From positions 62,001 through 126,000 of the IMG/VR virus record IMGVR_UViG_3300033273_000550: DNA of 64,000 bases. One strand, written 5' to 3'. Below the pieces are notes generated by a model. That model had not been told where the DNA came from. It did not search any database and worked only from the letters and a program-made list of their open reading frames with translations. The position numbers and the translations under genes are program-made. This stretch comes from a virus. The number at the start of each line of letters is the position of its first letter. Positions within the stretch are counted from its first letter, which is position 1. Below, one piece after another: positions 1 to 60,351 of this stretch.

Positions 1-2
1 AT

Positions 3-3000
3 AGTACCGACACTGCTATTGTAGAGTCGTTTGAGATAAATTCTGCTTTTAAAGCTTTTGAACATAAGCTAGATCTACATGTATATAACGTAGATAATAT
101 ACTTTTACAAAGTTTTCCAAACTCACAAGGATACCAGATCTTAGGTGATAGTCAAACAGACAATGACGGAAATGCTGATGCTCTTTATATAGATCCTATT
201 AAAGATGTAAAAGATACAGGATACGCCGGACAGGATATAAAATTAGTATATAACTTCCTAGACGATCTATACTCTGAAAATAAACTAGGGGTAACATTTT
301 TTATTGAAGAAATCTCTTCTGATGGAACAGAGCTTAGACTTCTTACCACTGGACTTTCAGACGAAAGAGTAAAAGAAATTACCGATAAATTAAAAGAAGA
401 TTTAAACAGCTCTTCTTATTTAGATTCTTTTGTTCTTAACTTTGGAGATAATAATTTACTTATTGGTGTTAATATAGATACTCAACCTTATAGAGATTAT
501 AACTCTGTTGTAGTTAAACTATATAACCCATTACCACAAGAGTTTGGTTTAAAATCCTTACTTACCATTCAAAGACAGGTAGCTGATTCAGTAGCATATG
601 TAGTTAATTCAACTTTCATACCTGATAAAATAAAAGTACCTTACATTAAGGGTCCTAATTTTAATGTAGAGTTAGAAGAAGATTTAACTAATCCCACACA
701 GTTTTTAAATTATAACGATCTTTTTAGCTTTCCAGTTTCAAATAATTATAGAGAACTAAACTCTCTTTTTGCTGAAAGTAGTATCCCAATAAGTATAGAC
801 TACTCTAACTACTCTAATTTTATTAGATTTAGTTCAGCAGAAGAAAGATTAAAAAACTTTAAGTATAAGTTAGATTTAATTGAAACTTATCAAAAGCAGT
901 ACGACAGTGCTAGTAATACAACTGAAGCTACATTTTATTCTTCTAGTACTAATTACCATCAAGCAAATATCAATGGTATTATAAATAACTTCGATCATTA
1001 CGAAAGATTTTTATACTACAGTACAGGATCTACTTCATGGCCTAAACAAGCACCTTATAATAAACCATACACAGTAGCAACAGGTTCAGCTACCGGCTCT
1101 TGGTATACTGCTAACCTACTATCAGCTAGTAATTACGATACAACTAACTACTCTAAGTTAACCGATAGTATTCCAGAGTTTATTAGAAACGATAGTGCTA
1201 ACAATTCATTTAGCTTGTTTACTGATATGGTAGGTCAACACTTTGATAATTTATGGATATATACCAAAGCACTATCAGATAAGTACGACGGTGACAACAG
1301 GCCTGATTTTGGTGCTGCTAAAGGATTGGTAGAAGACCTATTAAAAAACTTTGGAGTAAAAGTATACAATAGCTCTAGATCAACAGAAAACTTATTTAAA
1401 ACATTTACAGGAGAGTTATACGATTCAGGTAGTGAAAGTTTAATAGGAGGAGCTAATATAATATCAGCATCTAATTCTCCTACAAGCGAGGAAGTATATA
1501 GACAGGAAGTATATAAAAGAATGTACCATAACCTCCCTTACCTTTTAAAAACTAAAGGTACTGAAAGAGGTTTAAGAGCGTTAATAAACTCGTTCGGTAT
1601 ACCTTCATTACATACAAGTACTACAAATAATGCTCTACATATTAGAACTCTCGGAGGTGGAAATAAACTACAAACAGTAAACTTCGGATTAGAGAATTAT
1701 GTTAGCTCGTCAGAATATAAAGTAAGGTTAGATGATACCGGCAGTATTGTATCCGGTAATACCTTATCTCTTTATACTTCAATAAGAAAGGATGATATAA
1801 AAATGGCTGACGATATTCATAGAACTGATATCGGCTACTCACCATCTGATCCTGTCAATGATGAAATCTACGCTTACTATGCTTCTACTGGATTTAATAT
1901 TGATGACTATATTGGTGATCCAAGAGATGCTTATAAAAAAGAATACCCTAACTTAGTAGCAACAGGAAGCAATGTAGTCGAAGAATTAACAACAAGCGGC
2001 AGTCATGATTACTTTGATTTTGTAAGATCTCTTAAGTTTTTCGATAACGTAGTATTTAAGACCATTAAAGACTTCGTACCTGCAAGAACAAGTTTAAGTA
2101 GTGGTATAATTATCAAACCACACGTATTAGAAAGAAGTAAGTTAAAACAAGTAGAAGTATCAGGTAGTCAAAAACCTATAAGTTCTTCTCAAGCCATAGC
2201 CGATCAATTTACCGGCAATATTATATTAACAGGCTCTATTGAAATACTTGATTTAACAGGAAGTTCTGGCGGAGCTTTTGGACAAATAAATTCTCTTAAC
2301 CTATCTCAAAGAAGAGGTCCCGGGTACTGGTACCCTTGGGGTGCATTAACAGCATCATACGAAGAAGAGGTGATGACTCCTGATGGTTTAAGAACTAAAA
2401 CTTACCATGATCATGAAGAAGCAAGATATGATGGGGAACTTTCCGGCAGTCTAATTAACCCTGTATTATCACCAGGAGAGCTAAATGACGAAAACTTATT
2501 TAAAAAAGATAACCCAGACGAGCTTACCTATATTATAGAATCAGCTTCTCAAGGTATTGAACCATCACCAACACCTACTCCTACTATTACACCTACTCCT
2601 ACTATTACACCAACACCAACACCTACATATGATCCAGGAGCACCAACACCAACACCTACTCCTTCTGAAACCTACGATAATAGTGTATTGTGTTTTAGAT
2701 TCCTAGTATGTGATGGTAACTCTGGTACACAAGTTGGTGATGAAGTCTGGATACCTCAAAATGTAAATGCATTCGGTGTCATAGGAGGAACAGGACCTGG
2801 AGTTATATGCGGTGGTAGTTTCTTAACTAATAGAACAAGCTTACCTGCTCAAGGTGAATTCTATCAAATAGTAAATAACCCGGTGTGTAGTAATGAAACA
2901 AGAGATGATAATATTTTTGCTAAATATACAGGTGTCACAGCATATAAAGTACCTACAGCATACTTCTTCGATGATGTAGCAGGACAAGAAGATTGTGATG

Positions 3001-38672: not shown

Positions 38673-41600
38673 ATGGCATTAATTAAATGGAAACAGATAA
38701 GTGAACAGTTAGGAGACTACGGAATACTATCCGGCTCTCTTAATATCTCAGGTTCAATTCTACTCAATGGAGCTAATTTAGCAGCATCTGGTGGTGTTCC
38801 TCAAACTTTATCTGTATCCGGTACTGATATTACAATTTCTGATGGAAATACGATCAGTATTGCAGGTACAACAGGAAGTTTAATAAATACTGCTTCTGTT
38901 TCTAATAATGTTATTACTTTTACTAAAGGAGACGGTACTTCTTTTTCTTTAACTATAGATACTGGTTCAGGAGGTGGAGGAGCAACAGATATTTCTGCTC
39001 TAAATACTTTTACTGGTTCTATTCAAGGAGAAGTTAATACAATCAAATCAGTTACTGGTTCATATGCAGTAACTTCTTCTAATACTTTTACAGGCTCTCA
39101 ATTTTTTAGTGGAGCATTAATACCTGAAGCGTATAATTCTCAAAACGGTAAACACGATTTAGGATCTTTAACAAATCCTTGGAGAGATTTATATATTACT
39201 ACAGGATCTTTAAATTTTGTTAAAGATGGAACATTAGTTTCTGTAGTATCTGGTGAACCTGATGCAATTAGAATTGGTAATATACTTATTACTACATCAT
39301 CTATTGCAGTTGTAAGCGGATCTGGAGATAGTTTAACCGTAGTACAGAATGTAGTTAGTGCTTCTATATCTTCTTCCGGTGAAGTAGAAAACGTTGAACA
39401 AATTACAGCTCCTGACGGTACTGTAAGTAGCTCAGCACAAATTACAGCATTAGGATTTATATCAGAATCTTCTACTGGTTTAGTTTCTTCTTCTACTCAA
39501 ATAACTGAGTTAGGATTTGTATCAAATGCTAATACAGCATCATTTCTAGTTAATTCAGATACTGCGTCTTTTATTACTAACGACGATACTGGTTCTTTTA
39601 TTACTAACGACGATACTGGTTCTTTTATTACGAGTGCAGTAACAGCATCTATGACTGTACTTTCAGCTTCTTATGCTATTTCATCTTCACATGAAATTAT
39701 AACAGAGGTAAGTTCGTCTCATGCACAAAACGCTGATACAGCATCATTTATATCTGATACTTTTATTTCTGCTTCTGCAGTAAGAAGTGGGTTTGGTTCG
39801 GGAGGAGGTTCTACTTCATATGACGGAAATAGAATAATCTCTAACGAATTACTACCAAGCTTATTTTCAGCTTCTTTTAATCCTGGTACTAGCGGCAGTA
39901 TAACTGATTTTCTTAATGCAGTTTTTTATCCTAATAGTGCTCCAACTATTACCTCAACAGCAAATATAAACATAGCTGAATTTTTAGATTCAGGAAGTTC
40001 AATACATACTATTACAGCTACAGACCCAGAAGGTCAAGGTATTACATTTCAAACAGCCTCAGGATATACAGATGATTTAGTTAGAGTATCTAGCGGTGGT
40101 TCTGTAACATTAAATACAGGCTCCACTACTGAACTATTTAACACAGTAGATAGAGGAGATGGAACGTTAGCACATGAAGTAGGAATTACAGCAACAGATA
40201 CTTTCGGTACTGCTGCAAGTCAAACGTTATACTTTGATGTAACAGCAAACTCAGCACCTGTCTTCAGACAAACTTCCGTAGCTGGAAATATAATTACATC
40301 ATTTACTGCTAGTAGAAATGAAAATGCTAGTACAGGTGAAGTAGCAAAAATATACTTTACAGATACCAATAGTGACACTATTACTATAAGATCAAGCTCA
40401 GTACCAGGTGGAGATTTTACCATTACTAAATACGGTACTTATGTTAGTATAGCTCAAGCTACTGCCTCTTTAGATTATGAAACTACTTCTTCGTATAGTT
40501 TTTCTATTACAGCTTCTGATGAGCATTATGAAGCATCTGAAGATACAGACGCAGTAACAACTTTACCTATTACTATAAGCGTAACTGATAACATACATCC
40601 TACAATTAACAACCAGACATTAACAGGGGTAAGTGAAAGTAGTGCAGCAAGCACAGTTGCAGGAAACATTGCAGCATCAGACTCAGAATCTGATACTATT
40701 ACGTTTTTCAACTTCACTACATCTAGTAGAAGTTTAGACGGAACACCTATTACTGCAGGTACATACGGTAATACATCATCAGGAAGTGATCCATCAGAAA
40801 ATCCATTTCAGATGACATCTGCTGGACAGGTATCTCTAAAGTCTGGACACTTTCTTAACTCAGATATTATTAACCAGTATAAATATACTGTACAGGTTAG
40901 AGATAGTTTTAACACTGCATCTAATACTGCTACAATTACTATTCCTATAGCAGATGATGCTGCACCGTCTATAAGTGGTCTACAGGCATTTTACTTAATA
41001 GAGTCTGCTGTAAGTGGAGCTTCTGTATATGATAGTACAAACGGTTACTCAGGAACAGTAGCTAGACTTACTTCTAATCAATCAGTAACTTGGGAGATAA
41101 GTTCATCAAATGATTTTGCGATTTCAAGTACTGGATACATAACTGTAGCAAGAAATATTTCTGGTTCTAGCACTGTTGGAGGAAATACAATTAATGGATC
41201 GGTAACAGCTTCAAATAGTTTTGGTACTTCAACAGCAAACACCTTTACAGTAAATATTACAGACAACGTTGGTCCGACAGTTTCTACTGCTACTAATACT
41301 AACTTCTTTAATACTAATGGAGCTAGAAGCGGTAGTTACTTATATACCTTTACCTTCTCAGATTCTGAAGGTAACGCAATAGATACAGGATCATTTACTT
41401 GGAATTCTGATACTTTCTTATCAGCTTCTATTATAAGTAACAATACAGCAAGAGCTTATGTAACCGGTAGTATACCGGCAGGTACATATAGGTATACAGG
41501 TTCTATTGCTGACGAGCATGGATTTGAAACTACAACTTTTCAAAATGAGTTTACTATCAATCAGGCTCCTATCGGAAGCTTAACTGGTAATACTACATCT

Positions 41601-42797
41601 CATATTATAGAATCAGCAATCAGTGGAGCAGTCCTAAGAAGTTTAACCGGATATAATGCAGGAGTAGCAGCTGATCTAGGCGTAAGTTACTCACCGCAAT
41701 ATAATTCTGCCGCTGTTCAATCATTTACTTCTTCTAATGCAGCAATCGCTGTTAATAACTCAGGTAATTTGACTTTAGCAGTTAATTTAAGCGGGTCTGC
41801 AACAAGTTCAGGAGATACCATTAGTTCAGATATTACTTTTAGAGATCAATACGATAACGTAGGTTCTGGTAGTATAACAGTAAATGTATTCGGTAATTCA
41901 GCTCCTACAGCGACATTTGCAAATCAGACAGCTAACTTAACAGCTTCAGTTTCTTCTGGAGATTATTTAGTAGGAGTAACGATCTCTGATACTGAATCAG
42001 ATACTCCATTTTCTATGTCTATTTCAGGATTAAGTGGATCCTCGTTTACTGCTGTACCTCAAAACTCTAACTCATCTTCTTATCAAATTCAAGCTTCTGG
42101 AACATTAAGTGAAGGAACATACCCTTACAGTGCTTCTATATTTGATAATTTTGATGAACAAACAAATTATAATAGAACACTAACTATAGCAGCACCTCCT
42201 GTACACTGGTACGCATATATTATTGAAGGAGGAGCATACGCTACAAATGAAGCAACATCATTACAGATGTTAGGTGATAATAGTGATGACGGAAGTCCTG
42301 ATGCTAACACAGCATTAGCAGGATTTGTTTCCGGTTCGATTGGAAATGGAACTTTTACATTCTCAGCCTTTTCAGGTATAGATGCTCAAATAGATACTGC
42401 TTTTGAAATTGCAAGTGGTTCTAGTTTAGAAGGATCAAGAACATCTACAATAATAGATGCAGTAGATCATACCACAGGTAGTGAAGCATCTCCAACTAAC
42501 ATGCTAGCAATAGTATTTCCATCAGGTTCAGGATTTACCTTACCTGATAGTACAACAACTAGTTTAGGAGGATCAACTGCTGGAGAATATGTATTATATG
42601 CAGATAGAGTAGGAACAGGAATTAACGATGCTGTTCAAACAGCGTTTGTAAGATACTTTGATCTATCAGGATCAGTAACTTACCCAGATACAAATTTAAC
42701 TAGATTTGGAGTATTGTTTACTCAAGGAGATGGCTCTAACGATGTAAACTACTTCTTTATGGCGTCGAGTGGTTCGGCTCCATCATCAACACAATAA
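38673..42797 (+). CDS. Long tail fibre with cadherin-like repeats
   Basis: A 1374-residue fibre. Residues 1-20, MALIKWKQISEQLGDYG, resemble the WKK docking starts of other fibres here. Residues about 25-420 are SGS-rich with repeated TASFITNDDTG units. From about 424 to 1170 come around seven cadherin-like beta-sandwiches, recognised by NSAPTITS or NSAPVF starts, LDYETTSSYSFSITASDE and VSVTDN-type linkers. The C-terminal domain (from about 1175, PPVHWYAYIIEGGAY) is different and may bind the receptor. Cadherin folds often bind calcium, plausible in seawater. A receptor-binding fibre is likely. Confidence 0.75.
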   Translation: MALIKWKQISEQLGDYGILSGSLNISGSILLNGANLAASGGVPQTLSVSGTDITISDGNTISIAGTTGSLINTASVSNNVITFTKGDGTSFSLTIDTGSGGGGATDISALNTFTGSIQGEVNTIKSVTGSYAVTSSNTFTGSQFFSGALIPEAYNSQNGKHDLGSLTNPWRDLYITTGSLNFVKDGTLVSVVSGEPDAIRIGNILITTSSIAVVSGSGDSLTVVQNVVSASISSSGEVENVEQITAPDGTVSSSAQITALGFISESSTGLVSSSTQITELGFVSNANTASFLVNSDTASFITNDDTGSFITNDDTGSFITSAVTASMTVLSASYAISSSHEIITEVSSSHAQNADTASFISDTFISASAVRSGFGSGGGSTSYDGNRIISNELLPSLFSASFNPGTSGSITDFLNAVFYPNSAPTITSTANINIAEFLDSGSSIHTITATDPEGQGITFQTASGYTDDLVRVSSGGSVTLNTGSTTELFNTVDRGDGTLAHEVGITATDTFGTAASQTLYFDVTANSAPVFRQTSVAGNIITSFTASRNENASTGEVAKIYFTDTNSDTITIRSSSVPGGDFTITKYGTYVSIAQATASLDYETTSSYSFSITASDEHYEASEDTDAVTTLPITISVTDNIHPTINNQTLTGVSESSAASTVAGNIAASDSESDTITFFNFTTSSRSLDGTPITAGTYGNTSSGSDPSENPFQMTSAGQVSLKSGHFLNSDIINQYKYTVQVRDSFNTASNTATITIPIADDAAPSISGLQAFYLIESAVSGASVYDSTNGYSGTVARLTSNQSVTWEISSSNDFAISSTGYITVARNISGSSTVGGNTINGSVTASNSFGTSTANTFTVNITDNVGPTVSTATNTNFFNTNGARSGSYLYTFTFSDSEGNAIDTGSFTWNSDTFLSASIISNNTARAYVTGSIPAGTYRYTGSIADEHGFETTTFQNEFTINQAPIGSLTGNTTSHIIESAISGAVLRSLTGYNAGVAADLGVSYSPQYNSAAVQSFTSSNAAIAVNNSGNLTLAVNLSGSATSSGDTISSDITFRDQYDNVGSGSITVNVFGNSAPTATFANQTANLTASVSSGDYLVGVTISDTESDTPFSMSISGLSGSSFTAVPQNSNSSSYQIQASGTLSEGTYPYSASIFDNFDEQTNYNRTLTIAAPPVHWYAYIIEGGAYATNEATSLQMLGDNSDDGSPDANTALAGFVSGSIGNGTFTFSAFSGIDAQIDTAFEIASGSSLEGSRTSTIIDAVDHTTGSEASPTNMLAIVFPSGSGFTLPDSTTTSLGGSTAGEYVLYADRVGTGINDAVQTAFVRYFDLSGSVTYPDTNLTRFGVLFTQGDGSNDVNYFFMASSGSAPSSTQ
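39567..39620 (+). repeat. 27-bp exact tandem duplication in fibre gene
   Basis: Two adjacent identical 27-base units beginning TCTTTTATTACTAACGACGA and ending TACTGGT, encoding SFITNDDTG twice, with a partial third copy after 39620. Confidence 0.9.
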
Positions 42798-46536: not shown

Positions 46537-48267
46537 ATGCCAAATTGGAAGAAACTTATAGTTAGCGGATCAGACGCAAGCCTATCTAATATCTCTGTAG
46601 ACAATGCTATAACTGCATCTAATCTTAATGTAACTTCAACAGGTTCTATTGATAACCTAACAGTAAATGATAAACTTCAATTAGGAGGAGCTGGTTCTCA
46701 ATTCTTTGCCTATAACGAAGATACCGTAAAAGTTAAATTTGCTAATTGGTACTCATCTAACGATAGACAGTATGGGATGGGTCAACTTTGGTATGAAACT
46801 TGGTTTGCAGCCATAGATAATCAAGGAGCTAGAGATAATAGAAGAATTGGATTTTACTTAGAAGAACCCGACAGTGGTTCGTCTGATGCAGATGGCGGCT
46901 CTGGTGGGCATCCTTCAAATGCAAGATTTTATGTAGATATAGATGGAGCATATCTTAGCGGGTCATTAAATGTAGAGAATGCAATAACTGCATCATACTT
47001 TAAAGGTGATGGTTCTGCACTTACTAATATATCAGCTGAGGTTACAGAACAAGCTACCGTTTCTGATTCTTTTACAAACGTAACCTCACATTCAGTAACT
47101 CATAACTTTGGTACTAAAAATGTAATTGTATCTGTTTATAACAACAGCGATCAATTAATTCTCCCTGCTTCTATCACTACAACAGATACTAATACAGTAG
47201 ATATAACATTCGACGTTTCTACCACAGGAAGAGTAGTAGTAGCTAAAGGAGGACATTTAGTATCTGGATCGGCTGTTCTAACAGGAACAGGAGTAATATC
47301 TGGTTCATCTCAATTGTCTGGGTTTGTATCTCAATCAGGAAATTTTACTACTAATAATGTAATAATTGCAAACGGTAGTAACTCAGTTACATCATCAAAT
47401 GTACTATCTCTCGATACAACAAATAACTACTTAGGAATAAATCAGACTAATCCAGAAGTGACCCTTCATATGACTGGAGAAGGACCACAGACTGCTCAAA
47501 TTCGAATGGAGCAGTATAATGATACAGCTGATGCTCCTGATATTAGAACTCGTAAAGCTAGAGGAACAGCAGATTCACCATCAGCTCCTAATGCAGGAGA
47601 CTACCTATTCAGACAGAATGTTGAAAGATATGACGGTTCTGGTTTTTCTACAATGCACTCTCAGCAGTTTGATTTAGATAGCTCTGACGCAACCAAAGGA
47701 GTTTACCAACTACAGACTAATATCGGTAGTGGTTTAGTAACTAGATTTCAAATCTTAAGTAGCGGTGATACTGCCATAAACGGACACTTACTACCATCCT
47801 CTCATGAAACTTATGATTTAGGGTCAACAACAAAACGCTGGAGAGATTTATATCTTAGCGGCTCTACTATCAACTTAGGAGGTACACTTATTACGAGAGA
47901 CGGTACTGGGGATATTCAATTTAAAGATGATAGCACAGATGAATTAAAAACTCTAAGAGTAAAAGAGTTAGAGATCGGTACAGGAGCTAATAAAACTAAA
48001 ATTAGACTTGATGATGATAATAAAGTATCTTTTGAAAAATCTTCTGATTCTTCTAAAGTAACAACTTCTAATTTCTTTAAGACCTCAGTTAATGCTGCAT
48101 CTGAATACACTATAACCCATGGACTTGGAGAAGATTATCCTATTGTTCAAGTTTACGATACAGATAAAAACCAAGTAATACCTAAAAATATTACGTCTAA
48201 CTCAAGTAATCAAGTAAAAATTGAGTTCGATAACAATTTTACAGGAACAGTTGTCATAAAGAAGTAA
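46537..48267 (+). CDS. Tail fibre with WKK docking motif and internal globular insert
   Basis: A 576-residue fibre starting MPNWKKLIVSGSDASLSNIS. An inserted domain (about residues 60-145), with FANWYSSNDRQYGMGQLWY and IGFYLEEPDSGSS, is unlike its neighbours. A module with VSDSFTNVTSHSVTHNFGTK and GRVVVAKGGHLVSGS matches the fibre at 44763. The end repeats an INAASEYTITHGLGEDYPIV-type strand set, suggesting duplicated tip domains. A segment LPSSHETYDLGSTTKRWRDL resembles the long fibre at 38673 (HDLGSLTNPWRDLYI). Probably a mosaic receptor-binding fibre. Confidence 0.65.
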   Translation: MPNWKKLIVSGSDASLSNISVDNAITASNLNVTSTGSIDNLTVNDKLQLGGAGSQFFAYNEDTVKVKFANWYSSNDRQYGMGQLWYETWFAAIDNQGARDNRRIGFYLEEPDSGSSDADGGSGGHPSNARFYVDIDGAYLSGSLNVENAITASYFKGDGSALTNISAEVTEQATVSDSFTNVTSHSVTHNFGTKNVIVSVYNNSDQLILPASITTTDTNTVDITFDVSTTGRVVVAKGGHLVSGSAVLTGTGVISGSSQLSGFVSQSGNFTTNNVIIANGSNSVTSSNVLSLDTTNNYLGINQTNPEVTLHMTGEGPQTAQIRMEQYNDTADAPDIRTRKARGTADSPSAPNAGDYLFRQNVERYDGSGFSTMHSQQFDLDSSDATKGVYQLQTNIGSGLVTRFQILSSGDTAINGHLLPSSHETYDLGSTTKRWRDLYLSGSTINLGGTLITRDGTGDIQFKDDSTDELKTLRVKELEIGTGANKTKIRLDDDNKVSFEKSSDSSKVTTSNFFKTSVNAASEYTITHGLGEDYPIVQVYDTDKNQVIPKNITSNSSNQVKIEFDNNFTGTVVIKK

Positions 48268-48305: not shown

Positions 48306-49982
48306 ATGAGAATAGATAGCCCTATAATGACTAATGCAGTTATTACTGGATCGTTTTCTGGTTCATTCACCGGTACAGGTAACTTTGAAGGCCTTACTGC
48401 TGATTCTGTAGCCTACGCTAACGTAACAGGAAAACCTGCTTTACTTTCTGGTTCAGCCCAGATTGCCTCTGATATTTCAGGGTCATTTACAAGTACATCA
48501 TCAAGTATTGCTTCTAATATAGCAAGTAACTTATCGAGTATTAACACACTTAATGGTAAATCACTTTTATCAGGTTCAGCTCAAATTGCTGCGGATATTA
48601 GTGGATCGTTTAATTCTGTATCAGCAAGTATAGCAAGTGATATCGCAGGGCTAGATAGTACTTATGCCACTGATACACAGCTTACCTCTCTTAGCTCTTC
48701 TGTAGCTTCTGATGTAGCTAGTAACTTATCAAGCATTTCTACCTTAAACGGTAAAACCTTATTCTCATCTTCTGCTCAAGTTACTATCACAGAAAGTCAA
48801 ATCTCAGATTTAGATCATTATACAGATTCTGATGTTAAAACTAAATTAAATACCGAAAACGTAGTTTCTGGTTCAGTAACTTCTCCTAGCCAAGGTACGG
48901 TAAGATTAAATAATGTAGACGTAGACTTAGGAGTTCAAACAGGAGATTCACCTACTTTTAGCGGATTAACTGTTTCTAACAATGTTACTATAAATGGTGA
49001 CCTTACAGTATTAGGAGATGCTACCGAGCTACAGGTTAGTTCCTTGAATGTAGAAGATATCAATATCACAATTGCATCTGGAGCAGCCGATAGTTCAGCA
49101 GCAAACGGTGCTGGTATTACAATTGCTGGAGCAAATGAATCTTTAACTTGGGATCACGGTAACTCAAGATTTAACTTCTCAGATGACTTAAACGTTGCTG
49201 GTAATATTACACTCACAGGAACAGTAGATGGAGTTGATATTGCTTCGTTGAATACTACGGTAGGTAATATAGATACTTCAGTACCGGCAATTATAGATAG
49301 TTCTGGTACTCCAGCATTTAATACAGGTATTACTAAAGCAGAAGTACTGTCTATTCTTAATGTAGAAGATGGAGCTGACGTAACAGATGCAACTAACGTT
49401 AAATCAAGTTTACCATCAGGAGTTGTTTCAGGATCAGCATCTGATGCTAGATCGCAATTAGGATTAGGAACTTTAGCTACTTTATCTTCTATAGATATTA
49501 GTAGTAACACTAACCTCGGTGTTACAGATACAACAGGACAGACCGGTATCAATATGAGTTTAACAGGAGATAACATCTCAGGTACTCTAGTTGGTTTAGG
49601 AACATCGGATGATGTACAGTTTGACAGTTTAGGAATTGGCACAGCAGCACCAGGAACTACAGGTGTTATTAGAGCTACTAATGATGTTGTTGCTTTCTAT
49701 TCTTCTGATGAAAGACTCAAAGATAATATATCAGAAATTCCAAATGCTTTAGATAAAGTAGAGGCTCTAAAAGGAGTAGAATTTGATTGGAATAATAACC
49801 AGGAAGTTTATGAAGGTCACGATATTGGAGTTATCGCTCAAGATGTTGAAGCAGTACTTCCTGAATTAGTAGAAACTAGAGATAATGGATATAAAGCTGT
49901 TAAGTATGAAAAATTAACAGCAGTATTAATACAAGCAGTTAAAGAGCTTTCTGCTAAAGTAAAAGAGCTCGAAAATAGATAA
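48306..49982 (+). CDS. Tail fibre with C-terminal peptidase S74 intramolecular chaperone
   Basis: A 558-residue fibre of LSGSAQIASDISGSFTST-type repeats (residues 1-170), a middle ITGNVTINGDLTVLG-like part and a C-terminal peptidase S74 domain: SSDERLKDNI, then LKGVEFDWNN, GVIAQDVEAVLPELV and YEKLTAVLIQAVKELSAKVK. The autocleavage Ser is S467 and the Lys is K472, spaced as in endosialidase chaperones. The domain trimerises the fibre and then cuts itself off. It lacks the WKK start of the other fibres. Its own promoter-like box precedes it. Confidence 0.82.
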   Translation: MRIDSPIMTNAVITGSFSGSFTGTGNFEGLTADSVAYANVTGKPALLSGSAQIASDISGSFTSTSSSIASNIASNLSSINTLNGKSLLSGSAQIAADISGSFNSVSASIASDIAGLDSTYATDTQLTSLSSSVASDVASNLSSISTLNGKTLFSSSAQVTITESQISDLDHYTDSDVKTKLNTENVVSGSVTSPSQGTVRLNNVDVDLGVQTGDSPTFSGLTVSNNVTINGDLTVLGDATELQVSSLNVEDINITIASGAADSSAANGAGITIAGANESLTWDHGNSRFNFSDDLNVAGNITLTGTVDGVDIASLNTTVGNIDTSVPAIIDSSGTPAFNTGITKAEVLSILNVEDGADVTDATNVKSSLPSGVVSGSASDARSQLGLGTLATLSSIDISSNTNLGVTDTTGQTGINMSLTGDNISGTLVGLGTSDDVQFDSLGIGTAAPGTTGVIRATNDVVAFYSSDERLKDNISEIPNALDKVEALKGVEFDWNNNQEVYEGHDIGVIAQDVEAVLPELVETRDNGYKAVKYEKLTAVLIQAVKELSAKVKELENR

Positions 49983-51023: not shown

Positions 51024-51878
51024 TTGAAAATAATTTGGGTTTTAGAAAATATAAAAAAGAGCGAAGAATTTTACAGTAAGCTCTATATACTTATTCTTTT
51101 AGCGTCAGTAAGATTATGGAAGAGATACTATCCTTTCGATAGGTGTGTTTTATACTGTGATCAAATGACGTATAATCTTTTGTTAAACTTACAAGTAGAA
51201 TGCTTATGGGATGAGATTGAACTATTCGAAAGTAGTAGAAATATAAATAAAAAAGTTTTTTGGGCATCTTCTAAACTAGAAGTACTTTCTAAACAAGATG
51301 AACCTGTAATTATAGTTGATAACGATACTCATATATTTTGTAAAATAAAAGATTATCTTGATCCACAAAAAGTTTATATTCATAACTACGAGGTGGGTAA
51401 GGGTTATTATCCTGGAGTTTTAGATCCATATGTACAAAAACTAGCTAAAAAAAGAAGATGGAAAACTGAGTCTGTAAATGTAAGTTTTTTACAACTACCT
51501 GATCCTGCTTTTACTAAAAAATATGCAGAAGCTAGTTTAGAAATGATGGAAGAGTTTACATTAATGGATGTCCCTCATTCACAATACTTAATATTTTCCG
51601 AACAGCTACTTCTTAAACATATGTTAGAAGAAGAGCAAATCGATTATCAGAGTATTATATCTACTTACTGGAACTGTACAGAGTGGGAATGGGGGGAAGA
51701 TCACGATAGAGGTATTTGGAAAATATACGATTCTGGTAAATACATAAAACATTACGGTCCATTAAAGGGGTGGATACTACAAAGTAAAGCCGATCTGAAC
51801 TATGATGATGAAGTAAAACATTTGCTTAATTGCATTAATATTCCTAATTTAAACTTAGACCTGATTAAAAAACCATAA
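51024..51878 (+). CDS. Glycosyltransferase-like protein (TTG start)
   Basis: A 284-residue protein starting with TTG (MKIIWVLENIKKSEEFYSKL). A DxD-like motif, IIVDNDTHIF (D99-D101), and the fold-like N-terminal half (YYPFDRCVLYCDQMTYNLLL) suggest a GT-A-type glycosyltransferase that uses a nucleotide sugar. The later part, WNCTEWEWGEDHDRG, is acidic and aromatic. It opens the glycan cluster after an 18-base gap and overlaps the next start by one base. Donor and acceptor unknown. Confidence 0.55.
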   Translation: MKIIWVLENIKKSEEFYSKLYILILLASVRLWKRYYPFDRCVLYCDQMTYNLLLNLQVECLWDEIELFESSRNINKKVFWASSKLEVLSKQDEPVIIVDNDTHIFCKIKDYLDPQKVYIHNYEVGKGYYPGVLDPYVQKLAKKRRWKTESVNVSFLQLPDPAFTKKYAEASLEMMEEFTLMDVPHSQYLIFSEQLLLKHMLEEEQIDYQSIISTYWNCTEWEWGEDHDRGIWKIYDSGKYIKHYGPLKGWILQSKADLNYDDEVKHLLNCINIPNLNLDLIKKP

Positions 51879-52639
51879 TGGGAGTTATAGATAAAGAATT
51901 TGTAAGACAGTTTCTAACTAATAATCCTAGATTAGTGGAAAATAAAAAAGGAGAGAAAGTAAAGGTTTTCGATCCCGTTAGGTACCGCTGGACTCATGGT
52001 GCTACTGATTACCATTTAGGTGACGGTATGTTAATTTATTCGATTATTCAGTTAATGAGATATAAAACCTGTGTTTGTTTAGGTTCAGGAGCAGGATTTA
52101 TCCCTCGTATAATGACCCAGGCTAGATTAGATTTACACGATCAAGGTATATTCTCAGGAGATAAAGATTACAATCACGGTGATATCGGGGAGACATACTT
52201 AGTAGATGCTGCTAATGGCATAGGAGGAAAAATAGACTACTCAGATAATGATAGCTTTTTTAGATATCAATTTGTGCCTAGATTCATTAAAGATACTACT
52301 GAGAATGCTTTTTATAATTATTTTGTTAAGAAAGATATAAAAATTGATTTTCTACATATTGATGCAGGTCATTCTTATGAAGATGTTAAAAAAGATTTTG
52401 AACTTTACTCTACATTAGTAAAACCGAATGGAATGATATCAATTCACGATACAGATGAGAAGTATCAAGCAGAGCTTATAATCACTGAAGATGAAAAAGA
52501 ATACTACGAATTATTTGATGGACCTCCTAAATTTATAAAAGAAATAGGTTCCGAATGGAAACAATTTAATTTTTTCAATACAGGAATAGAGAAATCAAAA
52601 CCTGCATCAACAGGATTAACATTATTACAACGTGTCTAA
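51878..52639 (+). CDS. Class I SAM-dependent methyltransferase
   Basis: A 253-residue protein. A SAM-binding-type Gly motif, VCLGSGAGFIPRI (about residues 68-80), is followed by IDFLHIDAGHSYEDVKKDFE and LVKPNGMISIHDT, typical of the family of sugar O-methyltransferases. This enzyme may methylate a glycan or phage surface sugar. It overlaps the previous gene by one base and the next by eight, so the three are probably made together. Confidence 0.72.
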   Translation: MGVIDKEFVRQFLTNNPRLVENKKGEKVKVFDPVRYRWTHGATDYHLGDGMLIYSIIQLMRYKTCVCLGSGAGFIPRIMTQARLDLHDQGIFSGDKDYNHGDIGETYLVDAANGIGGKIDYSDNDSFFRYQFVPRFIKDTTENAFYNYFVKKDIKIDFLHIDAGHSYEDVKKDFELYSTLVKPNGMISIHDTDEKYQAELIITEDEKEYYELFDGPPKFIKEIGSEWKQFNFFNTGIEKSKPASTGLTLLQRV

Positions 52640-53779: not shown

Positions 53780-54303
53780 TGAACATACAAAAGACATTTA
53801 TATTACCTACTGCGGACTGTGAAGGTCTAATAAAATTAGCAGAATCAACTGGGTTTTCAAAAAGTACGATAGAAGGTTCATATCGAGAGATAAGCTCAAA
53901 AGGTATAAGAAAGTCTTTAGAGAGCACAATAAGAGTAGATGATTATATAAAATCTATTATAGATAAAGCCTTACCAGACACAAAAGTTATAAGATACCCA
54001 GAATACTGCAAAATAATAAAATACTCTATTGGGGATTACTTTAAAAAGCATAATGATAATGAAGGAATAAACGATAGGTATAAAACTTTACTTATACAGT
54101 TATCTGGTAAAAAAAAGTACACCGGAGCTGATGTTTTAATTTACAAAAAAGATTCATATATTAAAGTAGATAAAACCCAAGGTTCAGGAATACTTTTTGA
54201 TTCTTTTTTAACTCATGAGGTTACACCTCTAACTAAAGGACATAGATATGTTTTTGTTCTCTGGTTCACTTACGACAATTTATATATAAGAAATACGATA
54301 TAA
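53779..54303 (+). CDS. 2OG-Fe(II) oxygenase-like protein 2
   Basis: A 174-residue protein with the alternative prolyl-hydroxylase-like pattern: GDYFKKHNDN (H91, D93), FLTHEVTP (H146) and HRYVFVLWF (R156). It shares only the fold signature with the protein upstream, so it is probably not a recent duplicate. ATG sits on the last base of the previous gene. It may hydroxylate a residue that later receives a sugar, as in hydroxyproline-linked glycans (inference). Confidence 0.68.
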   Translation: MNIQKTFILPTADCEGLIKLAESTGFSKSTIEGSYREISSKGIRKSLESTIRVDDYIKSIIDKALPDTKVIRYPEYCKIIKYSIGDYFKKHNDNEGINDRYKTLLIQLSGKKKYTGADVLIYKKDSYIKVDKTQGSGILFDSFLTHEVTPLTKGHRYVFVLWFTYDNLYIRNTI

Positions 54304-55139
54304 TGTTAAACCTAGTTACAGTTGTTGGGAGAAATACTCATATACTACCTCATATGCTAAAACACTATGAAGGTAAAGTAGAAAAACATTATGTAGTTGT
54401 CTACAGACAAAGTGATGATGACGGTATACTTGAAGAAATAGAAGAGTTAGGTATTACTCCATTTAAAGTAGTAACTGAACCTAAGTTCCACTGGGAAAAA
54501 GTAACAGATCTATATAACGAAGTAAGAGTAACAAAACCTAATGACTGGTGGGTAATATCCGACGACGACGAATTACAGGTATACCCTACAGATATAGACT
54601 ATCTTATAAGACAGTGTGAATATTATGGGTATGATTTTATTACTGGTGGGTTTATAGATAGAATAGGTAAAGGTGGTACTTTTCCAAAAGTGAAGAGAGA
54701 CACAGATATACACAAAGAGTTTCCTCTTGCTGGTTTTTTTCGATTTCCAATGTCTGGTGCGTGTCCTAATAAAGTAACTTTAGCAAAAGGACATCAAAAA
54801 ATAACACCTGGTCAACACTATGCTCTTTTTTCTGATGGAAACAGTTGGGGAACTTCTCACCCTAAGCGTTATCCTATAGAAGAATGCTTTACTCAGGTAC
54901 ATCACTTTAAATGGGATGAAAGTTGCATCAAGAGAATAAAAGAAGTAGCAGATAATAAAAAAGAATACTCCTTTTCTAATGAATATTTGAAAATGTATAA
55001 CGCTATAAAGGATAGCAATTGGAAAATAGATATAGAGAATAAACTATATCTAGTTGAATCTTTAAAGGAATTTTCTTATATTGATTATTATGACTATTCT
55101 AAATGGAATATATTAACTCGTAAAATTGTAAAAATTTAA
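54303..55139 (+). CDS. Glycosyltransferase family 2-like protein
   Basis: A 278-residue protein beginning MLNLVTVVGRNTHILPHMLK. The acidic cluster WWVISDDDELQVYP (D87-D89) is the metal/nucleotide-sugar site of GT2-type enzymes. FRFPMSGACPNKVTLAKGHQ and FTQVHHFKWDESCIKR are typical of bacterial glycan-transfer proteins. It overlaps the preceding gene by one base. It probably transfers a sugar to a growing chain or surface acceptor; specificity unknown. Confidence 0.68.
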   Translation: MLNLVTVVGRNTHILPHMLKHYEGKVEKHYVVVYRQSDDDGILEEIEELGITPFKVVTEPKFHWEKVTDLYNEVRVTKPNDWWVISDDDELQVYPTDIDYLIRQCEYYGYDFITGGFIDRIGKGGTFPKVKRDTDIHKEFPLAGFFRFPMSGACPNKVTLAKGHQKITPGQHYALFSDGNSWGTSHPKRYPIEECFTQVHHFKWDESCIKRIKEVADNKKEYSFSNEYLKMYNAIKDSNWKIDIENKLYLVESLKEFSYIDYYDYSKWNILTRKIVKI

Positions 55140-55141
55140 TT

Positions 55142-55327
55142 ATGGCACAAAACAAGAAAACTGACGCTGAACTTCTTCAAGAAAGAAATACTAAAGCTCT
55201 AGAGAAAATAGCTGCCTCTGTGGATGCTATCGCTTATTGGTTAGAAGATATCGATAAACAAGAATGGAGTGAAAGATTACAATGGTATCTAGCTGAGTTC
55301 TTAAAGAATGCACAAGAGAATAAATAA
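55142..55327 (+). CDS. 61-residue helical protein in glycan cluster
   Basis: A 61-residue protein, MAQNKKTDAELLQERNTKAL then VDAIAYWLEDIDKQEWSERL, entirely amphipathic helix. It lies two bases after a glycosyltransferase and two before the first GT7-lectin gene. No membrane span or motif. It may be a small regulator or scaffold for the neighbouring enzymes; function unknown. Confidence 0.5.
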   Translation: MAQNKKTDAELLQERNTKALEKIAASVDAIAYWLEDIDKQEWSERLQWYLAEFLKNAQENK

Positions 55328-55329
55328 TT

Positions 55330-56718
55330 GTGGAAAAACTAGCGATAATTGTCCCTTATCGTAATCGTTATGACCAATTAGAAAAATTTACCGAATATAT
55401 TACTAGGTATTTAGATAATAGAAAATTTAAGTACTATATTATCGTAGTAGAGCAAGACGATGCTAAAGAGTTTAACAGAGGTAAATTACTTAATATAGGT
55501 TATACAGAAGCAAAAAAGAAAGCTTGTGATTACTTAGTTTTTCACGATGTAGACATGCTTCCTATAGACGTTGACTATTCTTATGTCAACCGTCCTACAC
55601 ATTTAATATCTGAAGATTTACCTTTTCCTGAATACTTTGGAGGAGTAACATTATTTCCTATAGAGGATTTTGAAAAAATAAATGGATTTTCTAATAATTA
55701 TTGGGGATGGGGTTTTGAAGATGATGATATACGTTACAGATGTATGCTAGAAAATGTAGGACTAAGAACTTTTAGCTTACAAAACAAATTTGTTACTTCA
55801 AGAGGACTCAAACTTAATGGTGAAAATGCTTATGTGAGTACTAGAAATCTTTTAAAGTCAAATAGAGATTTTAGCTTTTTCATTGAGTTCTACCCTCATG
55901 AAGTGATGTATGATACCGAAAAAGATTTTGATAAATATTCACTTCTATCTATACCCGGATTTGACTTTAGTATTAATTATACCTCTTTCAACAGATTCCA
56001 GGTAGAATTCTTTAATGAAGATAGAAAATACTATCAGGTATACTCTGATGTTATTAATTTAATTAATTCTAGAGTAGGTATAGGTGTAACTTATATTAGA
56101 AAAGATAAAAAACTTTTATTTTATATCAACGGTAAAAAAATAGGAGATACAATTCATGAAGGAGAAATATACCCTTACCATAAAGAAAGAGTTATATACC
56201 TAGGTTGTAGTAAAGCTAAAGAACATTTTTTACCTACTACCTATACTACCTTTGCTTATTACGATTGTGCGCTAACTAAAGAGGATTTTGCTAGCATAAA
56301 TAATAACCGTGAGATAAGTCTATTAGAAAATTTTGAAAACTATAATAATTGCGGTAACTTAAAAACCTATTTTGATTTTAAGTATCTAAAAGAATATAAA
56401 GCAATAGACTTATCCGGGAATGGTAATGAAGGTGAGATAGAAAAAGGAGAACCTATCAATATAAGTAAACTTACTGTAAACAAGCACGGTATTCCTTACA
56501 GAAAAACTGGGCGTGTAAAGAAGCTTCCTCATATAAATAACGGATTCTATGAAGGAAAATGGAAACATCAATCGACCAGATGGAATCAAATTAGATTCAA
56601 TAACGAGGTAGAGAAAGGTTATTATAATACCAAACTAGACGGATTATCAAACTTACAATTTAAAACACATTCTAAAAAACAACGAGGTAAAGTTATAACA
56701 TTAAACGTTGGTATATGA
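55330..56718 (+). CDS. GT7 (beta-1,4-galactosyltransferase-like) fused to a lectin domain, copy 1
   Basis: A 462-residue protein with GTG start. The N-terminal half matches the beta4-galactosyltransferase family: IIVPYRNRYDQL (residues 6-17), EFNRGKLLNIGY (47-58), FHDVDMLP (DVD 73-75) and WGWGFEDDD (125-133). Residues about 165 to 350 form a concanavalin/LamG-like fold (FFIEFYPHEV, VIYLGCSKAKEHFL), and the end holds IDLSGNGNEGEIEKGEP. The glycosyltransferase plus lectin arrangement suggests a carbohydrate-guided enzyme. Overlaps the next copy by four bases. Confidence 0.75.
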   Translation: MEKLAIIVPYRNRYDQLEKFTEYITRYLDNRKFKYYIIVVEQDDAKEFNRGKLLNIGYTEAKKKACDYLVFHDVDMLPIDVDYSYVNRPTHLISEDLPFPEYFGGVTLFPIEDFEKINGFSNNYWGWGFEDDDIRYRCMLENVGLRTFSLQNKFVTSRGLKLNGENAYVSTRNLLKSNRDFSFFIEFYPHEVMYDTEKDFDKYSLLSIPGFDFSINYTSFNRFQVEFFNEDRKYYQVYSDVINLINSRVGIGVTYIRKDKKLLFYINGKKIGDTIHEGEIYPYHKERVIYLGCSKAKEHFLPTTYTTFAYYDCALTKEDFASINNNREISLLENFENYNNCGNLKTYFDFKYLKEYKAIDLSGNGNEGEIEKGEPINISKLTVNKHGIPYRKTGRVKKLPHINNGFYEGKWKHQSTRWNQIRFNNEVEKGYYNTKLDGLSNLQFKTHSKKQRGKVITLNVGI

Positions 56719-58127
56719 AGTTAGGAGTGTGTGTACCATACAGAAATAGAGAATTGCATTTGAACGAATTCGTTCCAAAGGTAGGTAAGTATCTTAAAAA
56801 TAGAGGAATAGATTTTCAAATGTACTTTTGTCATCAAACAGATGATAAATTATTTAACAGGGGTGCTACAAAAAATATAGCAGCTAAACATGCACTGGAA
56901 GAAGGGTGTGATTACATTGTATGGCATGATATAGATATGATACCTGAAGAGGGAGGAGGAGCTGATTATTCGTACCCAAAAGATAATCCTAGACATATAG
57001 CAACTCAAATATCTCAAATGGACTATAAACTTAAGTATCATGAGTATTTCGGAGGTGCAGTTCTATTTACAAAGGAACAAGTAGAAGCTACTAATGGATA
57101 TTCTAATAACTATTGGGATTGGGGAATGGAAGATGATGATTTATTTTGGAGGTGTTATAAGGAAGGATATTTAAACGATTCCTATTTATTATCAAAGCCG
57201 TTAAAGCAAAAGTATATGTCTTTTGATGGTGAAGGTTCTTACATAAAAATACCTTCTGATAGAAGAACAAAAAGGTTAACTGGTAGTTCTCACACAGTAT
57301 CTATTTTATGCAGAGCTTTCCAACAACCAGAAAAACATAACATATACTTAATAGGAGATGAAAAAACTAGATACATAGAGTATCCAATATTTAGAATACC
57401 AGGATACGACTATGGAATATCTTTTAATAACTCTAGAGCATTAACCTTACAGTTTTGGAATATGTTCTATAAACACAATTATATGTGGGTAAAACGTTAC
57501 GATAATCACTGGTCATGGATAACCGCAGTTATAGATGATTCTAATAAAATATCTCATTTTTACTTAAACGGAACAGAAGTAGATTCTAAAGGTGGTTATG
57601 GAAGTCCCTCACCACTAGAATACTCAGGTAGACTACTTAAATATAAAGAAAGTGATATGTATTTAGGTATGTCTAAAAACGAACCAGAAGATGCTCCTAA
57701 TAAATATTTTAAAGGAGATATAGCAAGGGTATATGCATGGGATAGAGCTTTAGATCCTTCTGAGGTCGAAAACTTACATAGAGAAATACCTACTGATATG
57801 GTAGTTAATTTAAATTTTAATAATCCTAGAACTAAATTTAAAAATAATAAGTGCCAGGAAAAAGAAGAGGATATACTAATTCCCAATTCTATTTTACCTC
57901 ATAGAGTTGAAGGTAGAATGAGATGTCTTCCTCATAAAGACGAAGGTATAGTAGACGGAAAATTTGCTAAAGGAGAAACTACTGCTAAAAATGAAAGAAG
58001 GTATGTACTTCAAATGCAACAAGGTAAAATTAACCATAAAGAAGATGGTATAAAACAAGTAAAATATGAGTTTGTGAAAGAAACTAAACTTACACCTTGG
58101 GCTAAAATGATAGATATAAAATTATGA
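56715..58127 (+). CDS. GT7 fused to a lectin domain, copy 2
   Basis: A 470-residue paralogue of the preceding gene. The GT7 motifs are CVPYRNRELHLNEFV, KLFNRGATKNIA, WHDIDMIP (D72, D74) and YWDWGMEDDD (133-142). The lectin part (about 180-390) includes HTVSILCRAFQQ and YLGMSKNEPEDAP; both copies end in a P-H-R-V-E-G-R-M-type stretch before a basic tail. Tandem duplication with divergence implies different acceptors or donors. It overlaps the following radical SAM gene by four bases. Confidence 0.75.
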   Translation: MKLGVCVPYRNRELHLNEFVPKVGKYLKNRGIDFQMYFCHQTDDKLFNRGATKNIAAKHALEEGCDYIVWHDIDMIPEEGGGADYSYPKDNPRHIATQISQMDYKLKYHEYFGGAVLFTKEQVEATNGYSNNYWDWGMEDDDLFWRCYKEGYLNDSYLLSKPLKQKYMSFDGEGSYIKIPSDRRTKRLTGSSHTVSILCRAFQQPEKHNIYLIGDEKTRYIEYPIFRIPGYDYGISFNNSRALTLQFWNMFYKHNYMWVKRYDNHWSWITAVIDDSNKISHFYLNGTEVDSKGGYGSPSPLEYSGRLLKYKESDMYLGMSKNEPEDAPNKYFKGDIARVYAWDRALDPSEVENLHREIPTDMVVNLNFNNPRTKFKNNKCQEKEEDILIPNSILPHRVEGRMRCLPHKDEGIVDGKFAKGETTAKNERRYVLQMQQGKINHKEDGIKQVKYEFVKETKLTPWAKMIDIKL

Positions 58128-59566
58128 GTGATAAATTAGAGTTAGAAAAAAAGAAAGCTAAGTTACTTTTAGGTAATCACGATTATCAAATTACTAAAGA
58201 TAAGCTTGATAAGGTAGGATGCGGTATGTGCTTAGCTAAATGGACACAGACTACTATACACTTACAAATGGGACAAACTCACTCTTGTCACCACCCTGCT
58301 ACTCATAAAATTCCACTTAACGAATTAAAAAGAAACCCATCAGCATTACATAATACTTCTTTTAAAAAGCATAAGAGAAAAGAAATGCTTGAAGGAAAAA
58401 GACCAGCTGAATGTGATTATTGTTGGAACGTAGAAGATAATTCTCCTCAATTTTCTGATAGAGTTTTTAAGTCTAATGAAAGTTGGTCAGCTCCTCATTA
58501 CGATGAGATTGTTAATACTCATTGGAGAGCAGATTACAACCCTAAGTACGTAGAGGTAGCATTTTCTAATCAATGTAACTTTGCCTGTTCTTACTGCGGA
58601 CCTTCCTTCTCTTCTAAATGGACAGTAGAGGCAAATAAATTTGGACCTTATCCAACTCAAGATAATTTTAATGATATAGAGGCATTGAGGGCTAACGGCA
58701 AGATGCCAATTCACCACACAGAACATAACCCTTATGTAGAAGCATTTTGGAAATGGTGGCCTGAATTATATAGAGACTTACATACATTTAGAATAACAGG
58801 AGGAGAGCCCTTACTTTCTAAAGACACTTGGGGTATATTAGATTATATTATTAACGAATCTAATCCTAATACTAAACTTAATTTAGCAATTAATTCTAAC
58901 CTCGGTGTCCCAGATGATTTAGTAGATAAATTTATTGATAAAATTAAAAGGATAGAAGATGAAGGAAGAGTAAACGAATTTATTATATTCACCTCTGTTG
59001 ATACTTGGGGTGCTCAAGCAGAATATATTAGAAATGGTCTAGAGTTTAATAGAATGTGGGATAATATTAATAAAATATTAACTGCATGTCCGAGAGTTAA
59101 TGTAACTATTATGTCAACTTTCAACGCTATGTCTGTTCCTAATTATAAGAAGTTAGTAGACGGAGTATATAACCTTAAGAAGCTATATTCTCATAAAGAT
59201 AGGTATTGGGTATCAGCGGTCTTTTTAGATACTTCGTACCTAAGACACCCTCTACACCAAACACTTCAGATATTAGAAGAAGAAAAATGGGGACCTGTTC
59301 TTTGGGATACAGTACAGTATGTAGATTTTTTAGGTATTCCTAAATTCGATCACGAATTAGTAGGATATTCAGACGTAGAGGTTCAAAAAATAAAAAGAGC
59401 TTATGATTGGATGGTCTCTAAATTTAAAGATCCTGAAAAAATTTATAGACAAAGAAGAGATTTTGGTAGGTTCTTTAAAGAGCACGATAGAAGAAGAGGA
59501 ACGGATTTTAAAAAGACGTTTCCTGAGCTAGCAGATTTTTTCGATTGGGTTTTAACATTTAAGTAA
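58124..59566 (+). CDS. Twitch-domain radical SAM enzyme
   Basis: A 480-residue radical SAM protein. The Fe-S-binding CxxxCxxC is CNFACSYC (C151, C155, C158), with TGGEP at 225-229. Extra cysteines precede it: VGCGMC (C33, C36), C55 and AECDYC (C97, C100), matching the N-terminal twitch-like region of the phage-associated N_twi_rSAM family. Members use S-adenosylmethionine to start radical chemistry on unknown substrates. Position between GT7-lectin and lectin-like genes suggests a sugar or glycoprotein substrate (inference). Confidence 0.8.
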   Translation: MSDKLELEKKKAKLLLGNHDYQITKDKLDKVGCGMCLAKWTQTTIHLQMGQTHSCHHPATHKIPLNELKRNPSALHNTSFKKHKRKEMLEGKRPAECDYCWNVEDNSPQFSDRVFKSNESWSAPHYDEIVNTHWRADYNPKYVEVAFSNQCNFACSYCGPSFSSKWTVEANKFGPYPTQDNFNDIEALRANGKMPIHHTEHNPYVEAFWKWWPELYRDLHTFRITGGEPLLSKDTWGILDYIINESNPNTKLNLAINSNLGVPDDLVDKFIDKIKRIEDEGRVNEFIIFTSVDTWGAQAEYIRNGLEFNRMWDNINKILTACPRVNVTIMSTFNAMSVPNYKKLVDGVYNLKKLYSHKDRYWVSAVFLDTSYLRHPLHQTLQILEEEKWGPVLWDTVQYVDFLGIPKFDHELVGYSDVEVQKIKRAYDWMVSKFKDPEKIYRQRRDFGRFFKEHDRRRGTDFKKTFPELADFFDWVLTFK

Positions 59567-60351
59567 TGATTTTAAATAAAGAGAGAAGTTATATTTTTTA
59601 CGATATAGATAGACACGGAGTTTATATTAATCCTGTTTCTGATATGTTTGGTGATAAGTTTACTATGCTATGTAGATTTACCCCAGACTATGATCATATT
59701 CAAAAAACTTTAGAAAGCAGAAGAGATAATTCTAAGTTTAATAGAGTATTTCACAAACAATGTATTGTTGGTAAAAACGGTAAACACACAGGCTTATTTT
59801 TTACATCGTTAATTGATGATTCTGGTGATATTGTTCATACCGTAGAGTATGAATGGTGGCAAAATCCTTTATGGGAACAAAATCAAAGCGAGGATGATGA
59901 TGAATGTAAAGCTATTCGATTCCCAGTAGATCCGTACCAAACAGATACTTTTGAGGTAGTAGTAAAAAAGTACGATGGGGTATTTGAAGTTACTATGAAC
60001 GGTAAAACACAAAGTTTAGAGTATGACTGTATAATTGATTACTCTAAGTCTTTTGTTTGGATAGGAGCTGCCAATAGGTTATTAGATGATTCTGAAGCTT
60101 ATGATGAAGGATTTGCTTGTTTATACACTGGTGATATATCATTATTACATATGCAAGAAACTGAGATGAATCAAAGCGATATCGATCTTTGCTTTACTAA
60201 TTTTAAATCGTTTAGAGAAAGAGGGTATAATACTAAAGAAGACGTATTGTTTATTTCAACAGATTTTTCTGAAACTACACCTTATAAGGCTAGAGATTTT
60301 TCTGGAAATGGTACTCATCCTTTGCTGTATAACCCTCATTGGATAGGGTAA
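59566..60351 (+). CDS. Lectin-like (concanavalin-fold) protein
   Basis: A 261-residue protein overlapping the radical SAM stop. Beta-sandwich strands (FTMLCRFTPDYDHIQ, TFEVVVKKYDGVFEVTMNGK, SFVWIGAANRLLDD) are in the LamG-like style of the C-terminal parts of the GT7 fusions. The end, YKARDFSGNGTHPLLYNPHW, resembles their DLSGNG segment. It probably binds carbohydrate, acting as a stand-alone recognition domain for the cluster. Confidence 0.6.
   Translation: MILNKERSYIFYDIDRHGVYINPVSDMFGDKFTMLCRFTPDYDHIQKTLESRRDNSKFNRVFHKQCIVGKNGKHTGLFFTSLIDDSGDIVHTVEYEWWQNPLWEQNQSEDDDECKAIRFPVDPYQTDTFEVVVKKYDGVFEVTMNGKTQSLEYDCIIDYSKSFVWIGAANRLLDDSEAYDEGFACLYTGDISLLHMQETEMNQSDIDLCFTNFKSFRERGYNTKEDVLFISTDFSETTPYKARDFSGNGTHPLLYNPHWIG

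Follow-up and report, generated by a model that had tools for sequence, protein, structure and literature searches.

Polypeptide GalNAc-transferases of family GT27, in which a glycosyltransferase is joined to a lectin, are retaining enzymes whose lectin is a C-terminal ricin-type beta-trefoil. GT27 and GT7 have been placed within one clade, and the same source describes a GT-A core whose grafted variable regions often carry acceptor specificity (PMC7185993). Among viruses, Aureococcus anophagefferens virus (AaV) is described as packaging LamG proteins and a beta-1,4-galactosyltransferase (PMC7507832). Pelagimyophages have a large host recognition cluster: within their structural region, a variable island combines tail fibres with glycosyltransferases and radical SAM proteins. 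The authors of this related survey favour modification of the host O-chain (PMC7029224).

Here we analysed a 64,000-nucleotide stretch of DNA (the window, C1:62001-126000 of the 191,416-base virus record C1), in which two adjacent open reading frames, A and B, encode GT7 proteins (Table 1). Profile comparison of the record's genes gave matches to terminase, portal and major head protein families that we take to be T4-like, and the attribution of this DNA to a phage in an earlier note is therefore upheld. The nearest phage record was Flavobacterium phage immuto (terminase 77%, capsid 68%), with which the head and neck genes are collinear, and the host is thus likely to be flavobacterial.

Table 1. 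Features of the locus, with coordinates in the window
Feature	Coordinates	Strand	Basis
ORF A, 462 aa, GT7 enzyme with nested LamG	55330..56718	+	Pfam and predicted model
A: N-terminal GT7 half, ~residues 1-150	55330..55779	+	profile 10-169 against residues 2-145
A: DVD, DxD metal site D73-D75	55546..55554	+	D73 77/77, D75 75/77 A-type
A: EDDD, E130-D133, D131 = catalytic Asp	55717..55728	+	D131 77/77 A-type
A: nested LamG/pentraxin-like domain, residues 156-381 (predicted)	55795..56472	+	Z 22.8 to PAPP-A LamG
A: C-terminal GT7 half, residues 386-462	56485..56715	+	profile 165-232 against 386-453, E 5.1e-7
A: C-His H401 (metal ligand)	56530..56532	+	His 71/77 A-type
ORF B, 470 aa, GT7 enzyme with nested LamG	56715..58127	+	Pfam and predicted model
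B: N-terminal GT7 half, residues 1-158	56715..57188	+	model; profile 11-166 against residues 2-151
B: DID, DxD metal site	56928..56936	+	70/70
B: EDDD	57129..57140	+	70/70
B: nested LamG/pentraxin-like domain, residues 163-390 (predicted)	57201..57884	+	model and Laminin_G_3
B: C-terminal GT7 half, residues 396-470	57900..58124	+	profile 170-233 against 396-461, E 1.3e-6
B: C-His H407	57933-57935	+	His 69/70, 1 gap
Tail fibre with Peptidase_S74 chaperone, island's left edge	48306..49982	+	
DUF6734 protein, frequent in cassette	51024..51878	+	Pfam; 52/76 loci
Methyltransf_24 methyltransferase, frequent in cassette	51878..52639	+	Pfam; 65/76 loci
GT2-like glycosyltransferase, cassette core	54303..55139	+	Glyco_tranf_2_4 26.6 bits, below cut-off 27.5
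Conserved 61-aa ORF, directly upstream of A	55142..55327	+	EERKVKALEKIA..DAL..WFEEIDK..W; alignment
Twitch-domain radical SAM, cassette core	58124..59566	+	NF033640, 336 bits
Free-standing LamG-like protein, akin to A's LamG	59566..60351	+	hhalign

GT7 identity and position of the LamG domain

Both proteins, whose reading frames overlap by ATGA, scored above the Pfam cut-offs for Glyco_transf_7N (82.5 bits for A and 55.8 for B, cut-off 27) and Glyco_transf_7C (68.2 and 69.4 bits, cut-off 23), and their sequence matches in the PDB were to beta4GalT1/beta4GalT7 only (best E 5.6e-29 for A, 3.8e-26 for B). AlphaFold2 models built on phage-only alignments (49 rows and pLDDT 93.3 for B, 36 rows and pLDDT 92.4 for A) matched beta4GalT1 with Z 27.6 over 214 residues (rmsd 2.0) for B and Z 26.4 over 208 residues (rmsd 2.2) for A. 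With FNRG, DVD/DID and WxWGxEDDD also found, the earlier note was right to see a beta4-galactosyltransferase-type domain in both. GT7-like proteins, which the note calls best known from animals, are not confined to them, as 17 uninserted bacterial ones attest. A third GT7 candidate in the genome (C1:30470, 23.1 bits) was set aside, as DVD and EDDD were absent by eye and the protein looked GT2-like.

A and B are 29% identical in an alignment of nearly full length, so the similar end noted before is real; it completes the GT7 fold as its C-terminal half, which makes the LamG domain an internal insertion. Indeed, the alignment to beta4GalT1 spans each model end to end (1..470 in B, 1..462 in A), whereas only ~158 residues precede the LamG domain, compared with the 214 (B) or 208 (A) residues aligned, and the stretch after the LamG domain reads GRxxxLPH...DG in both proteins and continues the GT7 domain. 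We built a 248-position profile from the 17 uninserted bacterial proteins (L085-L102, minus the truncated L101) and compared it with 147 phage-type proteins, made up of 77 A-type (assigned by profile score, third clade included) and 70 B. The profile matched in two collinear pieces flanking the insert in 142 of the 147, the second piece having E < 0.01 in 139, and none of the reversed or LamG-only control sequences gave E < 0.01. Models and profile alike identify the C-terminus as GT7 and rule out a C-terminal fusion. Thus, of the GT7-lectin fusion first proposed, the lectin-like fold stands and its place at the C-terminus does not, the C-terminus being the second half of the enzyme. In the predicted models the LamG domain is an insertion between the EDDD helix and the metal-ligand histidine; judged by model secondary structure, the site is the turn between the strand that follows the EDDD helix and the strand leading to the histidine, a predicted surface turn one strand from the metal ligand. 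Because it lies mid-fold, it parts the catalytic domain into two separated halves.

Laminin_G_3 scored 43.0 bits in B and 25.0 bits in A, the latter just under the Pfam cut-off of 27.6, so that the LamG fold of A rests on its model. Taken alone, the predicted LamG part of A matched the LamG domain of PAPP-A (Z in Table 1) and that of B (163-390) matched PAPP-A and PTX3 at Z ~20-21. These matches to PAPP-A and pentraxins bear out the LamG-like fold claimed before; a LamG fold is present in the predicted models, internal rather than C-terminal. The two LamG domains are related to each other (hhalign E 7.3e-32). At the computational level, the family, fold and nesting of A and B are established.

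So is the conservation of their residues: the DxD is intact in 145 of 147 proteins, the catalytic Asp in all 147 and the C-terminal histidine (C-His) in 140, and the homologues have thus not lost the DxD and EDDD motifs, a loss that would have counted against the earlier note. We presume that active-site residues have the roles they have in beta4GalT1; the numbering of R228, W314 and M344 was taken from PDB titles. Met344, the second metal ligand of beta4GalT1, is not conserved: 68 of 70 B proteins have Cys at the equivalent position, and A-type proteins vary there (Met in 1/77). The equivalent of Tyr289 is Tyr in 143 of 147 and Phe in the other four. If this residue has the numbering and the meaning for a galactose donor that we take it to have from work on beta4GalT1, it points to UDP-Gal, which is the most likely donor. 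The catalytic residue set and the predicted fold together make metal-dependent inverting transfer by A and B likely.

The cassette and the history of the pair

Pattern searches found 76 related loci (18 with A, 58 with B), or 71 contigs after five duplicates were removed by hand. Across the 76 loci, many of them clipped by contig ends, BLAST recognised A and B in 75 each, the 61-aa ORF in 71, the GT2 and radical SAM genes in 69 each and the free-standing LamG gene in 14, with the methyltransferase and DUF6734 genes at the frequencies in Table 1. A and B were directly adjacent in 66 of 74 loci (the 71 contigs plus L082-L084), and 53 of these 66 pairs had the ATGA overlap. A wider IMG/VR search gave 522 relatives, and we read the best 80 of these, some of which repeat contigs of the first set. 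In these 80 the small ORF always lay beside A. B adjoined A in 78, and of the remaining two contigs one ends just after A; within 3 kb there was a GT2 gene in 79/80 and a radical SAM gene in 72/80. Pairing and synteny are likewise established by computation.

The 61-aa ORF is probably helical and belongs to no known family, with no match of weight in PHROG or phage records. The free LamG-like protein, two genes downstream of B and lacking GT7 halves, had no match in the Pfam search; hhalign related it to the LamG-A family (97.9%, E 3.8e-13), to which it is nearer than to LamG-B. Between 52632 and 54303 lie an ORF that looks by eye like a P-loop sulfotransferase (no Pfam match) and two 2OG-Fe(II) oxygenases, none of which BLAST recognised elsewhere among the 76 loci.

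Metagenomic contigs of aquatic phages often carry the cassette, which was not found in the phage records searched: in 50,697 of these, A, B, the GT2 enzyme and the methyltransferase had no tblastn match at 1e-5, and the radical SAM protein had only partial matches (~22-25%) in 16 Vibrio phage records. In GTDB, full-length inserted forms were confined to L082-L084, three MAG contigs with the cassette whole or in part; since these may be phage contigs, it is doubtful whether bacterial hosts encode relatives. None of the 50 matches listed from a viral structure library aligned GT7 and LamG together, and a search of open-access journal papers found no GT7-LamG protein in phages.

The locus lies between tail genes. 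Between the tail sheath (C1:142843), downstream of A and B, and the last gene in common with immuto (46537-48267, a weak match) lie ~32.6 kb here and ~7.3 kb in immuto, and a glycan-type island, as judged from its genes, appears to be much of the extra DNA. It extends downstream (C1:125000-138000) with genes for a UDP-glucose/GDP-mannose (NDP-sugar) dehydrogenase, a cytidylyltransferase, a nucleotidyltransferase, an SDR protein and an aminotransferase, and with more ORFs that resemble radical SAM proteins by eye. Among the virion genes, 38673-42797 encodes a 1374-aa protein in which a cadherin domain was recognised (41.2 bits); it had no match in the PHROG comparison.

The duplication proposed in the earlier note is supported: A and B are old paralogues maintained as a coupled pair. 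In a tree of the GT7 parts, the B proteins (99/98) and the main A set (100/100) each make up a clade; further A-type rows, contributed by L016-L020, form a third group that stands apart from both. In L016-L020 the pair is preceded by another GT7-LamG paralogue (e.g. L017:3981-5570, L018:4192-5784), often with EDND and an altered C-His. Mean pairwise identity, calculated for 54 non-redundant contigs of the 69 with a full-length pair, was 0.69 for the GT7 part and 0.45 for the LamG part of B, and 0.50 and 0.31 for those of A, making B the slower partner in both parts. We considered and rejected the faster divergence of LamG-A as a sign of acceptor diversification, since A is faster in both parts and its ratio of LamG to GT7 divergence (1.38) is lower than that of B (1.80). 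The shared site and the related LamG domains would fit a single origin of the insertion, but three uninserted bacterial rows may nest among the phage rows of the tree.

Possible mechanism and target

The joint reading that we prefer, and that we hold to be about evenly balanced between right and wrong, is of a soluble inverting GT7 pair with an acceptor-holding nested LamG, in a late glycan cassette with a likely virion target. A and B would be metal-dependent enzymes, most likely using UDP-galactose, and the nested LamG most likely determines specificity by keeping the acceptor close to the active site; we infer this role from the position of the insert in a surface turn near the metal ligand and from the precedent of variable segments in GT-A enzymes. 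The sugar-guided glycosylation with two specificities proposed in the earlier note is likewise a hypothesis, for sugar binding by LamG as for a difference between the paralogues. An old duplication would have given the translationally coupled pair, and coupled translation and fixed gene order are suggestive of joint action by A, B and the radical SAM protein. In a late phage cassette, the pair would work alongside the GT2 enzyme, the radical-SAM protein and the methyltransferase to build an oligosaccharide that is modified and most likely attached to a virion or tail-fibre protein made by the phage.

The same enzymes might instead modify, during infection, a glycan on the surface of the host (LPS O-chain or capsule), for example to exclude rival phages, which we consider unlikely though quite conceivable. 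The pelagimyophage cluster, with its glycosyltransferases and radical SAM proteins, is so read by its authors (PMC7029224), and sugar-nucleotide-type genes lie downstream here, genes that would fit a virion or an envelope glycan alike. However, A and B have no visible membrane anchor, the GT7 domain starting at residue 2; we noticed no flippase, polymerase or initiating lipid transferase when reading the gene lists by eye; and the cassette lies directly behind tail-fibre genes. It is this position among late tail genes that would favour a virion target.

LamG folds are also protein binders, which counts against an acceptor-binding or lectin role, and the best fold matches include PAPP-A and pentraxins, presumably oligomeric protein-binding modules. 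The nested LamG could then serve in docking or oligomerisation with a virion protein, the free LamG protein or a partner enzyme, rather than as a lectin, a doubtful but credible alternative. It draws on the LamG-A-related free protein encoded nearby and on the faster divergence of LamG than of GT7 in both A and B (identities above), but the free protein occurs in too few loci to be the general partner.

An elaboration of the virion reading, in which the two GT7 enzymes add successive sugars to a virion protein, their LamG domains function as specificity subunits in the way that alpha-lactalbumin does for beta4GalT1, the ever-present helical protein of 61-77 aa serves as acceptor or scaffold and the product is modified by the radical-SAM protein, is speculative and improbable. 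That one or both paralogues are catalytically dead and serve as lectins or scaffolds seems very unlikely: the C-His is changed in 6/77 A-type rows and Asn replaces the third EDDD position in 15/77, but A and B of the window retain DxD, EDDD and C-His, and B is intact at all three wherever the alignment columns are filled. Glycosylation of modified DNA bases, in the manner of the T4 glucosyltransferases, is barely credible, since sugars are the substrates of the GT7 folds to which A and B matched in the PDB and the cassette lies among tail genes, even if the phage is T4-like and phage glycosyltransferases acting on DNA are known (PMC12619734).

Together, the observation made in the earlier note is real and better than chance, the structure is more unusual than first described and the chemistry is that of a known family. 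A lectin-like domain nested in a beta4-galactosyltransferase fold would be a natural case for testing how GT-A enzymes evolve their choice of acceptor, and could supply soluble galactosyltransferases that lack a Golgi anchor. As the cassette is common in metagenomic contigs of aquatic phages and was not found in the phage records searched, it marks a phage glycan pathway that could be studied by experiment once a relative is in culture.

Comparison with known systems

A and B resemble animal beta4GalT1/T7 (CAZy GT7) in sequence and in the GT-A fold (Z 22-28 over 186-214 residues), sharing FNR, DxD, WxWGxED, the metal-ligand His and the donor-gatekeeper Tyr. Unlike these enzymes they are phage-encoded, have no N-terminal anchor and carry a LamG domain between EDDD and the C-His; Met344 of beta4GalT1 is replaced by Cys in B and is variable in A. 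The uninserted bacterial GT7-like proteins (Parachlamydiaceae, Planctomycetota, Alphaproteobacteria, Pelagibacteraceae) have the same collinear halves, C-His and DGL tail, but their frames of ~226-369 aa, unlike A and B, are without LamG. The Pelagibacteraceae proteins (L095-L100, L102) are divergent, with EDTD and with N-N-V/I-D in place of H-D-V-D.

The pelagimyophage cluster resembles the A/B island in its variable structural-region setting, tail fibres, glycosyltransferases and radical SAM proteins; unlike the A/B locus, its description mentions no galactosyltransferase or GT7 (PMC7029224), and the nearest isolate by terminase to the phage studied here is a Flavobacterium phage. In AaV, an algal giant virus, LamG and galactosyltransferase are separate proteins, unlike in A and B. 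The GT27 enzymes are alike in combining a glycosyltransferase with a lectin, whereas in A and B the lectin-like part is a LamG fold nested within the enzyme.
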